Assembly: GCA_016938195.1 (NCBI GenBank)
Contig: JAFGVC010000040.1
Location: 1 to 55,957 of the forward strand
Length of the DNA stretch: 55,957 bases
Direction: 5' to 3'
From: Tissierellales bacterium
GTDB taxonomy: Bacteria; Bacillota; Clostridia; Tissierellales; Dethiosulfatibacteraceae
Shown: positions 23,698 through 26,376 of the stretch, piece after piece
How the letters are laid out: each line of letters begins with the position of its first letter
How positions within the stretch are numbered: the first letter of the stretch is position 1
The notes under the pieces: generated by a model
Told to the model about the DNA's origin: nothing
Database searches by the model: none
The model's input: the letters and a program-made list of their open reading frames with translations, nothing else
Translations under genes and position numbers: made by a program

Positions 23698-23731
23698 CTT
23701 TGAAATAAGGTATTTATTGTTGAAAGGGGTG

Positions 23732-23847
23732 TCTGTCCTAAAACCTGCATTTAGCAGCTTTTACTCGGTCGCGCCCTCTCAAGGTTCGACTCCCTTCCAT
23801 TCAAAGCATCAAAAAAACACCTTTTCAGGTGTCTTGTTGATACTTTG
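23732..23847. repeat. Direct repeat, left copy (116 bp)
   Basis: Matches 25908-26023 in the same orientation over 116 bp with a single difference (A at 23782, G at 25958). It contains a stem-loop based on CCTGC-ATTTA-GCAG, a T-arm-like stem around TTCGACT, and a copy of the ssrA terminator hairpin (23817-23832). It is separated from the right copy by about 2.06 kb. Confidence 0.95.
23811..23832 (-). terminator. Duplicated ssrA-type terminator in the left repeat
   Basis: On the minus strand ACACCT-GAAA-AGGTGT followed by seven T. It is identical to the terminator directly after ssrA, and here it would end transcripts from the DUF4143/AraC-remnant segment. Confidence 0.75.
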
Positions 23848-24035
23848 TTTACCCCGAACAAGAAGGCTAACGTTTAAATCACTTATAATTTACTACAATT
23901 CAAATACTAATATAATCATTTAGAATTTCCATCTTTTAATCTCCCTTTGCAATATGGACAATACTTTGGATCGAAAATATATTTTGAATATAATCTATAG
24001 CAGTTAGGACGCCTTCTAAGTATAAAAAACACAAA
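23848..24035. other. Intergenic stretch inside the repeat-bounded segment
   Basis: AT-rich sequence with no gene, RNA or clear hairpin that I can recognise, between the left repeat and the AraC-family remnant. Confidence 0.4.
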
Positions 24036-24338
24036 TTAAACAATACCAAAGTAAGCAAACATAATATACATTACAATTTGTTTTAAATAATTATTTTCAT
24101 TGAGTACTAAAATAAAATAAAAAGTAATGGTATCTATTATTTTTTTCCCGGTTTTTATAGCCTCAATGGATGCTGTAATACGCCTTCTACGTAAATATTC
24201 AGATAATGACATTTGTGCTAGGAAAGAAAACATTCTTCTAAACTCATATTCTGAACAGTTGATTATTCTTGCTAATGATGAATATTTGAACAATAAATTT
24301 ACTGTGCATTTTGTGTAATCTCTTGCATAGTTTGATAA
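24036..24338 (-). pseudogene. AraC-family regulator remnant
   Basis: The frame reads LARIINCSEYEFRRMFSFL then MSLSEYLRRRRITASIEA, which is the first helix-turn-helix of an AraC-type DNA-binding domain. It continues through KTGKKIIDT, where the second helix-turn-helix should begin, but then becomes unrelated sequence up to the stop. Upstream the frame stays open only for 15 codons (to 24338), before a stop, and the only start-like codon is a TTG without a good ribosome binding site. The second half of the domain is missing, so it is a decayed fragment, in the segment bounded by the two 116-bp repeats. Confidence 0.7.
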
Positions 24339-24411
24339 TTAAGCGCAGGGGGGTTGCATATATGTTTTTATCTAGTCCTTAACTCTATCGGTATCCAGTG
24401 ATTTCTTTTTT

Positions 24412-25611
24412 CTAATAATGCGCCATCAATAAAAAATCCTTTATATTCATATGCTTTATCCCGTTTCTGCTTCTATCAATTTCATCCATAGAAACAACAT
24501 ATTTAGGATAGTTATCTGGTATTGATTCAAGTACCGAAAATTCTCGTTCCACCGTTTCATCAGAAGCTAGCAAATAAGAGACCTGAATGTATATTCTTGA
24601 ACTCCCGATTAATGCTACAAAATCCACTTCGTTATTACCATTTTTCCCTATAAGCACATCATATCCCCTACCAAGCAATTCAATATATACAATATTCTCT
24701 AAGGTTTGATTGATATCGCGCATATTATTTCCAAACAACGCTTCTCGAATCCCATGATCCGCTATATATATTTTTTCCTGAAATTGTAGTAATTTTTTAC
24801 CCATTAACTCTTCTCTTTGTACCAAATGTAAAAAACAGGCAGCTTTACAATAGTCTATATAATTATAAATGGTTTCTGTTGAAACGCTTCGCAGTTCATT
24901 TTTAAGATATTTTGATATGTTAGAAGCTGAAAATGTATTGCCTATATTCGCTATAAAGAATTGAATCATTCTCTTCAATAATTCAATGTCCCTTATCTTA
25001 TTCCGAGTTGCAATATCTTTCAATATGATTGAATCATAAATATCATTCAAATACTGCATAGCACTACGATCATCCATAGGAAACTGATAGAGAAATGGCA
25101 TTCCACCCCTAACGAGATAAAGTTGAAATATCTCTTGCTTGCTTTTTTGAGGGAAAAAACTTAGTATTTCTTTATATGAGAAAGGATAAATTTTCACTTC
25201 TACATACCTGCCAGCCAAGTAGGTTGCAAGCTCACCCGATAATAATTTAGCATTGGACCCCGTTATATAAATGTCTGCATCAAAATCAATCATGATAGCG
25301 TTAATCATCGTTTCCCAACCATCAAGCTCTTGTATCTCGTCAAAAAAAAGATAATTCTTTTTTTTTGATTCAGTGGCTATTTTTTTAATATATTCATAGA
25401 TTCCGTCAATAGTGATTACAAATGGATTCATTTTACTTTCAAGATTGATTGAGACGAAAAATTCTTCATTGATACCTTGTTGAATCAATTCTTTTTGAAT
25501 AAGCTCAAGCATGACTGATTTTCCTGAACGCCGTATGCCTGTTAATACTTTAATAATGGGTTGATTTAAAAACGGACGGATTTTTGACATATATTGTTCT
25601 CTAAAAATCAT
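24412..25611 (-). CDS. AAA ATPase with DUF4143 (archaeal-type ATP-binding protein)
   Basis: About 399 residues. Walker A is GIRRSGKS (25-32), Walker B LFFDEIQ (88-94), sensor motif YITGSNAKLL, then a winged-helix region and a C-terminal DUF4143 segment with a nuclease-like EVDFVA...YIQVSY strand pattern reminiscent of PD-(D/E)xK folds. Members are widespread, often horizontally moved, and of uncertain function. I chose the ATG at 25611, since AGGA precedes it; upstream in-frame ATGs lack this. It is the only intact gene between the two direct repeats, so it may be cargo of a lost element. Confidence 0.85.
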   Translation of the reverse strand: MIFREQYMSKIRPFLNQPIIKVLTGIRRSGKSVMLELIQKELIQQGINEEFFVSINLESKMNPFVITIDGIYEYIKKIATESKKKNYLFFDEIQELDGWETMINAIMIDFDADIYITGSNAKLLSGELATYLAGRYVEVKIYPFSYKEILSFFPQKSKQEIFQLYLVRGGMPFLYQFPMDDRSAMQYLNDIYDSIILKDIATRNKIRDIELLKRMIQFFIANIGNTFSASNISKYLKNELRSVSTETIYNYIDYCKAACFLHLVQREELMGKKLLQFQEKIYIADHGIREALFGNNMRDINQTLENIVYIELLGRGYDVLIGKNGNNEVDFVALIGSSRIYIQVSYLLASDETVEREFSVLESIPDNYPKYVVSMDEIDRSRNGIKHMNIKDFLLMAHY

Positions 25612-25907
25612 TTTCGACACATCCTTTCTCATAGTCTTTAACTTCACTTTAATTCATTTATAACGAAAAGTCAAACGAATTATTAATTTTTCACTCGATA
25701 CATCGAAATCTATTTAAAGGTTTAATTCAATGAAACACTCCAAGCATTAAAATCACACTTAACAATCCATATTACCGATTTTGGTGGCCGCCTTAAACAC
25801 CTACGGTATTTCTGGCGCTCGCAAACTTCGTTTGCCTAACCCTCTCCATCTCCTCCCTTGCATGAAAAGTCTCCTACAATACCCCCTCACATACATACGG
25901 GAGTCGC
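25612..25907. other. Non-coding stretch between the DUF4143 gene and the right repeat
   Basis: No gene is visible. The part from about 25785 to 25907 is more GC-rich than its surroundings and holds the hairpin GCAAAC-TTC-GTTTGC (25821-25835). GGGAGTCG at 25899-25906 is complementary to CGACTCCC at 25963-25970 inside the right repeat. Confidence 0.5.
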
Positions 25908-26023
25908 TCTGTCCTAAAACCTGCATTTAGCAGCTTTTACTCGGTCGCGCCCTCTCAGGGTTCGACTCCCTTCCATTCAAAGCATCAAAAAAACACCTTT
26001 TCAGGTGTCTTGTTGATACTTTG
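25908..26023. repeat. Direct repeat, right copy (116 bp), ending at the ssrA 3' end
   Basis: 115 of 116 bases match 23732-23847. Its right edge lies within the encoded CCA of ssrA (the gene's 3' terminal base is at 26022). The repeat therefore covers the ssrA terminator and the DNA downstream of it. The position is typical of a site-specific integration or duplication scar. Confidence 0.95.
25987..26008 (-). terminator. Rho-independent terminator of ssrA
   Basis: On the minus strand ACACCT-GAAA-AGGTGT followed by seven T, 14 bp past the 3' end of ssrA. Confidence 0.88.
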
Positions 26024-26376
26024 GTGAAGGCGGTGGGAGTCGAACCCACGTCCGAAAGCATTTCCATACAACTTTCTCCGAGCGCAGTCAAGATTTAGTT
26101 ATCGCTTGATGTGACCAATCTAGACAAATGTCACGCCAAGCTATCTCCGATTGTTCCGCAAAAGGTCGAAGCACCCCTAATGCAGTTCCCTGATTTGTTT
26201 GATGCCCCAGTATAGCCTACAGGTCGGCTAAGTGGAACAAGCTAGCAGCTTACGCTGCGTATGCTAAATTATTGTTTGTGTTTGCTTTTAATTTAGGTTG
26301 CCACTTTTAACGCTGTTTGGCGACAGCGGCTCGCTTATTATACTTCTATACCCCCGTCGAAACCAGTTACGCCCCC
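26022..26376 (-). ncRNA. ssrA: Transfer-messenger RNA (tmRNA)
   Basis: 355 bases. The 5' end GGGGGCGTAACTGGTTTCGAC and the 3' end GGTTCGACTCCCACCGCCTTCACCA-like tail (T-arm, acceptor strand and encoded CCA) form a 7-bp acceptor stem with two G-U pairs, as in alanine-type tmRNA. The tag frame lies at 26250-26285 and reads ANTNNNLAYAA followed by TAA, with GCA as resume codon. tmRNA with SmpB rescues stalled ribosomes and marks the product for proteolysis. The 5' end directly abuts the smpB stop codon (26377), so RNA and partner are made from one transcript unit or overlapping ones. A terminator follows. Confidence 0.96.

Follow-up and report, generated by a model that had tools for sequence, protein, structure and literature searches.

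Introduction

Integrons recombine their attC sites through the bottom strand, and the bridge RNA of IS110 is a structured non-coding element that carries a target-matched sequence. The attC site is imperfectly palindromic and folded, with an R box, a spacer and an L box, as set out in the sections of two papers used here (PMC2727003, PMC6393395). Genomic islands of the Islander type, which have a tyrosine integrase, insert at the 3′ end of a tRNA gene (tDNA), restore the target and leave a displaced 3′ fragment that marks the far end, according to the section used of a third (PMC4383910). Here we analyze a pair of 116-nucleotide (nt) direct repeats beside ssrA, the transfer-messenger RNA (tmRNA) gene, in a contig of 55,957 nt from a Tissierellales bacterium of the Dethiosulfatibacteraceae (JAFGVC010000040.1, positions 1 to 55,957, assembly GCA_016938195.1), which we call the window. 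The repeats are worn, truncated members, that is remnants, of a family of units at the 3′ ends of tRNA and tmRNA genes in Clostridia. We read them as parts of short cassettes inserted at these 3′ ends, with the unit as a folded recombination site; the latter role is the part that we infer, and we give the whole reading a probability of roughly 0.55.

The units resemble integron cassettes in several ways. A folded, imperfectly palindromic site closes each cassette, the cargo precedes it in one direction, arrays build up at a single chromosomal position, the junction is single and sharp, and two short duplexes flank an unpaired spacer, which recalls the R box, spacer and L box in the cited sections (PMC2727003, PMC6393395). 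Genes followed by a folded site, and arrays, all in one direction, are found at loci L139, L187 and L191 (genes) and L100, L185 and L172 (arrays). Unlike integrons, the units target the T-arm of many tRNA and tmRNA genes and not attI, and no IntI gene is linked to them; no intI with attI was found beside an array, and no integrase in the window segment. The paired strand is apparently the tRNA (cargo) strand, as opposed to the attC bottom strand, and the units have a conserved sequence, extra hairpins (P3–P5) and a terminator in front of the site.

Like tDNA islands, the units insert at the tDNA 3′ end, with the target restored and a 3′ fragment at the far end, but they are mostly gene-less elements of 190–210 bp, their duplication starts at exactly nt 59 of the tRNA, and they hold a folded antisense T-arm. 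An integrase inside the element was found neither in the window segment nor in any fully read cassette. With repeats like miniature inverted-repeat transposable elements or repetitive extragenic palindromes they share being short, non-coding, structured and present in several copies per genome; they differ in their position at tRNA 3′ ends, the 18-nt tRNA-derived junction copy, the target-matched sequence inside and the possible cargo. Like the IS110 bridge RNA, they are structured, non-coding and target-matched, whereas no IS110 transposase is linked to them and their matching stretch takes part in base pairs of the predicted fold.

The Repeats Beside ssrA Are Truncated Units

The two copies are 115/116 identical, with the sole mismatch at position 51 (A/G). 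Their starts lie 2176 nt apart and they enclose 2060 nt of DNA; the right copy extends to 26023 and there adjoins the tmRNA gene (ARAGORN, Rfam). This agrees with the sequence-only reading of the window, an earlier description that had reported 116-bp direct repeats with one base difference ending at ssrA. That reading had also asked for further copies. There is no third one in the genome (2.5 Mb, 194 contigs), the other sizeable match being an inverted self-match of the terminator/T-arm, so an ordinary dispersed repeat is ruled out for this genome. A covariance model, R1, made from nine units of other families, with the window and its own family left out, matches exactly two places in the 56-kb window, namely the two repeats. 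The features are as follows.

26022..26376, minus strand: ssrA (tmRNA), tag ANTNNNLAYAA; its T-arm GGGTTCGACTCCC and 3′ end are the cassette insertion site (ARAGORN, Rfam RF00023)
25908..26023, minus strand: repeat copy 2, ssrA-proximal, terminator plus truncated folded unit (repeat comparison)
23732..23847, minus strand: repeat copy 1, distal, terminator plus truncated unit, with the one mismatch to copy 2 (repeat comparison)
25978..26023, both orientations: terminator hairpin CAAAG.ATCAA..ACACC/GGTGT..TTGAT.CTTTG, directly after ssrA (fold prediction)
25897..25972, minus strand: truncated unit of copy 2, P4–P5 missing (R1, 34.7 bits, E 4.3e-8 in the window)
23720..23796, minus strand: truncated unit of copy 1 (R1, 19.9 bits, E 5.8e-4 in the window)
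25958..25970, plus strand: 13-nt T-arm mimic GGGTTCGACTCCC of copy 2, antisense to ssrA on the ssrA strand, a conserved unit element
25916..25938, no strand assigned: P3 hairpin AAAACCTGCATTTAGCAGCTTTT of copy 2 (fold prediction)
23717..23731, minus strand: distal copy of the ssrA 3′ end in decayed form, TTGTTGAAAGGGGTG; the relative L051 has it intact as TTGGTGAAGGCGGTGGGAG (window/L051 alignment)

On the ssrA strand each copy consists of the terminator, then GGAAGGGAGTCGAACCCTGAGAGGGC, which holds the complement of the tmRNA T-arm, and then the hairpin AAAAGCTGC..GCAGGTTTT. The ssrA terminator is a long hairpin whose pairing is conserved among relatives and whose sequence is variable. The T-arm complement of copy 2, GGGAGTCGAACCC, matches ssrA GGGTTCGACTCCC at 13/13 positions and that of copy 1 at 12/13; in the predicted fold P1 of copy 2 is closed by GGGAGTCG/CGACTCCC. 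The position of copy 2, immediately behind ssrA and its terminator, is also the expected one for a unit, about 45 nt beyond the 3′ end of a tRNA or tmRNA gene and on the strand of that gene. Both window copies have lost P4–P5, and alignment with L051 shows that about 60 nt of the unit have been deleted next to the decayed core at 23717–23731. Because P4–P5 are missing and the core has decayed, the window copies are probably inert. A degenerate third unit near 25770–25860 was considered and found no support from R1.

Relatives carry the same locus with a single unit. In L051, a prophage contig (IMGVR_UViG_3300001335_000190), the sdaA flank is 97.9% identical to the window over 1089 nt. Its one unit has an ssrA 3′ fragment on one side and, on the other, the ssrA 3′ end a second time, GAAGTAGTTTCTCCCACCGCCTTCACCA, followed by sdaA; the 2-kb segment is absent, and the core is intact (GGTGAAGGCGGTGGGAG, on the same strand as window TTGTTGAAAGGGGTG). 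Since L051 has one unit, an intact core and no segment, we conclude that the segment is no ancestral feature and that the repeat does not contain the real core. Within the same family, genome G004 (L015/L057/L050) also has this DNA directly behind ssrA, again with a single unit, and G001 has it as far as the end of its contig, which falls inside it. R1 scores the units of L051 and G004 (L057) at E 6.8e-10 and 3e-9, respectively.

These comparisons bear out part of what the sequence-only reading had proposed. It had suspected an insertion at the 3′ end of ssrA, which the locus is; the 116-bp repeat itself, however, is not the attachment core. As that reading had noted, the repeat lies downstream of ssrA, outside its 3′ coding part: each copy is the terminator plus truncated unit that ends a cassette, and the true core sits beside copy 1, so the repeat was rejected as a phage attachment core. 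The single-repeat site that it had hoped to see in a relative is present in L051, and in G004 too, and its alternative of an ancestral segment fails on L051.

The first 5415 nt of L051 hold a prophage that sits in ssrA of this close relative. The part that the prophage duplicates begins at T54 of the T-loop (TTCGACTCCC...), where an exchange across that loop would be expected to place it; the units differ in starting at nt 59. Orphan terminator/T-arm fragments also occur away from ssrA in G001 and G004 (L059 196–276, L060 2911–2967, L061 9755–9802).

A Family of Units at tRNA 3′ Ends in Clostridia

A first search of the class, with sequence from G004 as the query, gave matches in 21/391 genomes; wherever a tRNA or tmRNA gene was found for these matches, it lay close by. 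R1, scored on the best few candidates per genome, matches 84 of the 391 genomes and 57 of the 223 genera, with E values down to 4e-38 and at least 8 copies in some genomes. A sample of the phylum added only three further genomes at E 1e-5; among them, the match in G749 (L267) overlaps a tRNA gene itself and is doubtful. On the tRNA strand the layout is tRNA 3′ end, terminator, folded unit and a copy of the tRNA 3′ end, often in tandem with a period of about 190–211 nt, and arrays of this kind were seen at L084, L100, L185 and L172. The majority are gene-less units of 190–210 bp with only a terminator.

Nothing among 4227 Rfam families scored above the gathering threshold over the units, and a permissive search gave sub-threshold noise only; with ARAGORN likewise negative over the unit, we rejected a tRNA pseudogene or a known RNA. 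A typical unit had no match in annotated plasmid and phage collections, and the only match in IMG/VR was the flank of one prophage, L051. In the open literature, which leaves most subscription journals uncovered, we found no description of tRNA-end repeats, structured RNAs or integron-like arrays at tRNA genes. The family is apparently undescribed.

Predicted Fold and Match to the Host tRNA

The unit of ∼145 nt reads, on the tRNA strand, as the complement of the T-arm of its own tRNA (GGGANTCGAACCCT), a triloop, AGGG and the hairpins P3, P4 and P5. The T-arm complement is predicted to pair with NTCCC of the distal tRNA copy (P1) and with AGGG (P2). Across 84 distinct units and 42 pairs, 94.7% of the cells hold standard pairs, and in 37 of the pairs both sides have changed. 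Covariation scores 0.480, as against at most 0.091 with the partners slid and 0.156 after shuffling, and the loop sequences are conserved. Among the cells without a Watson-Crick pair, G-U outnumbers A-C by 94 to 14, an excess that points to folding of the tRNA strand; by itself it does not separate RNA from single-stranded DNA (ssDNA).

ARAGORN places a tRNA or tmRNA gene upstream on the same strand for 67/82 units, at a distance of 38–57 nt for 54 of them, and the units cover 14 tRNA isotypes as well as tmRNA. Most of the next-nearest units lie ∼240 nt from the tRNA, as second units of arrays, and several others outside the 38–57-nt class have a recognizable tRNA 3′ tail or end a cargo. The distal tRNA copy starts exactly at nt 59 (the A58|N59 junction) in 48/51 cases and runs to the gene-encoded 3′ end. 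Its length is therefore 18 nt where CCA is encoded and 15–16 nt where it is not, and it comprises exactly nt 59–76 in 44/51.

The antisense T-arm follows its own tRNA also outside the duplicated part. Position 57 agrees in 54/54 units, where the best of 5000 permutations reached 44, and nt 51–58 agree in 418/432 cells (permutation maximum 391). Similarity is higher between units of one genome at different isotypes (0.83) than between units of different genomes at one isotype (0.77). One unit, in L265 (G819, ∼1501–1633), lies ∼45 nt behind a tRNA-Arg gene and bears the core and T-arm complement of another tRNA; it is possibly an off-target insertion.

Filled and Empty Sites, and Cargo at Other tRNA Genes

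Within one genus, the tRNA-Lys(CUU) gene of G309 is empty, being followed directly by its terminator, and that of G465 is filled: tRNA, then terminator-unit-GTCCCTGAAGGTGCACCA, then the original terminator. The two form a precise filled/empty pair. Cargo-bearing cassettes were found at a tRNA-Ser gene (L139: unit, core, 3.1 kb with two genes, unit, core), at a tRNA-Leu gene (L187: a small gene and an AraC-GyrI/Cass2 regulator, unit, core) and at a tRNA-Met gene (L191: a hexapeptide-repeat transferase gene, unit, core). In all three the cargo genes are on the tRNA strand before the unit, and the window is laid out alike. That the units and cassettes are insertions is shown by the tandem arrays, by the cargo-bearing examples and by the filled and empty sites. 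A restored target with its 3′ fragment duplicated at the far end is seen in 48/51 units, in the tRNA-Lys pair and, for ssrA, in L051.

Genes for the C-terminal region of a large serine recombinase and for NikA/MobC-like and HTH_36/DnaD-like proteins stand just before units in L189 (7–1218) and L190 (877–2362), and some unit-ended islands may be mobilizable elements. In L176 of G301 (1480–1545), the terminator next to the tmRNA gene occurs a second time with the initial bases of a unit, and behind them come a protein fragment and a gene for a tyrosine recombinase.

The Segment Between the Repeats

Read from ssrA, the window locus consists of ssrA, a terminator-unit, the segment with its cargo (ATPase and AraC remnant), terminator, unit and decayed core, and then sdaA. 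Two features lie in the segment.

24412..25647, minus strand, as ssrA: cargo AAA_14/DUF4143 ATPase, PF13173 plus PF13635 (profile search; PADLOC PDC-S01)
24036..24293, minus strand: AraC-type helix-turn-helix fragment, a remnant (PF12833, below the curated cut-off)

The content is thus what had been read from the letters, one intact DUF4143 gene and a sub-threshold AraC fragment. The ATPase is a full-length match to the PADLOC profile PDLC04787 (PDC-S01), over 405/412 positions at E 3.2e-151, which makes it a candidate phage-defence gene; a sequence search of PDB found no relative of it. An integrase that would use the repeat, which the sequence-only reading had suggested looking for, did not turn up in the 2060-nt segment. 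Positions 23903–24070 are 82% identical to DNA of a genome of the same family (G006, L066); they seem to be left over from a membrane/zinc-ribbon protein, fused to the AraC fragment. In G004, an island behind the ssrA unit (L057, 2974–6696) encodes a type II restriction-modification pair, the methyltransferase together with its restriction enzyme, and possibly a type IV enzyme as well.

Discussion

A complete cassette runs, on the tRNA strand, from nt 59 to the 3′ end of the tRNA, through optional cargo, a terminator and the ∼145-nt unit, to the next copy of nt 59 to the 3′ end. If the unit is a folded recombination site, P1 and P2 would rebuild, on one self-folded strand, a T-arm-like duplex (GGG-TTCGANT-CCC) with one strand interrupted by P3–P5. 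A recombinase acting in trans would then link the folded unit, at A58|N59, with the T-arm of the tRNA gene in its double-stranded form, and the T-loop/T-stem match to the target would provide the homology for strand exchange. The tRNA would stay functional because the cassette restores its 3′ end, and tRNA genes in place of attI would make the system a functional analogue of an integron. The wider proposal, that Clostridia possess a so far undescribed recombination system in which tRNA and tmRNA genes serve as platforms and cassette ends fold, as ssDNA or RNA, into a T-arm mimic whose base-pair match to any of ∼15 tRNA types guides integration at A58|N59, is one that we advance tentatively, at somewhat under even odds.

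Several observations weigh against a folded recombination site of this kind. The paired strand is apparently the tRNA strand, unlike the bottom strand of attC, and the wobble tolerance could equally mean RNA. A tRNA-specific 3′ end alone leaves the match of closely similar units to different isotypes unexplained. No excision product was seen, and no recombinase is tied to the units. A conserved family of 279-aa tyrosine recombinases (NLRHLFARTYYSL...; L222/L216/L219), with several copies per genome, is enriched in genomes with strong units (24/38 vs 40/353 others, p 4e-12, phylogeny not controlled). At the threshold used it is absent from the unit-rich genomes G258 and G267, and only 1/30 of its loci is near a unit. 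Among tyrosine recombinases of unit-rich genomes, the one exception to the lack of linkage with units was near the tmRNA gene of G301. As a dedicated recombinase it is neither sufficient nor necessary, and we rejected it.

The unit could instead act as an RNA. A transcript of the tRNA strand would pair through its T-arm complement with the tRNA gene or transcript and either guide a recombinase, much as a bridge RNA does, or regulate the tRNA or the cargo, and an ordinary integrase would do the inserting. The tolerance of G-U on the tRNA strand, the conserved loops, the strong, RNA-like covariation and the 13-nt complementarity to the host T-arm would all fit. P1 and P2, however, already engage the complementary stretch in pairs, the unit always adjoins the duplicated core, as part of an attachment site would, and G-T wobble is tolerated in ssDNA as well. 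We consider this account unlikely, if still a serious competitor. That the units are ordinary tDNA islands or their remnants, inserted by the tyrosine or serine integrase of larger islands, with the unit a conserved island end amplified by unequal crossing-over, seems to us distinctly improbable. The islands of PMC4383910, in the section used, do restore the target gene and leave a displaced fragment, a prophage does sit in ssrA of L051, and a serine recombinase gene and MobC/NikA genes do lie near unit ends in L189 and L190; but most units hold no gene besides their terminator, the duplication starts sharply at nt 59 and not at T54 as in the L051 prophage, and an ordinary double-stranded attachment site leaves the covariation and the T-arm matching unexplained.

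For the window itself there is also a small chance of a plain duplication of the DNA downstream of ssrA, by homologous recombination around an unrelated 2-kb insertion, or of an assembly join through the repeat. The copies are 99% identical, the assembly is a draft of 194 contigs, and 116 bp is less than a typical read length. Against this, the repeat belongs to a widespread module, cargo-unit arrangements of like layout occur in L139 and L189, and relatives have one unit at the same place. The copies can be told apart despite the draft assembly because of their one-base difference, and the outer flanks are backed independently, by L051 on the sdaA side and by L057/L050 on the ssrA side. Copying of the tRNA 3′ end by reverse transcription is hardly credible. 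The 18 nt from nt 59 are the length copied from the tRNA primer up to the modified A58 in retroviruses, which the exact span of nt 59–76 in 44/51 copies would suit, but genes that encode no CCA give copies that lack it (6/51). For this reason the mature tRNA is not the template, and copying from it is largely refuted.

The reading that we favor, short cassettes inserted at tRNA and tmRNA 3′ ends through a folded site, gives a single, testable account of the small conserved repeats that roughly one in five of the sampled Clostridia species have at tRNA 3′ ends. In it, the target of each cassette can be predicted from the T-arm complement, which matches that target, and the R1 model allows the arrays to be mapped. 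Arrays at tRNA ends are places to look for cargo such as defence genes, as with PDC-S01 in the window and the restriction-modification island beside the G004 unit. The findings suggest that cassette capture by folded sites may extend beyond integrons.
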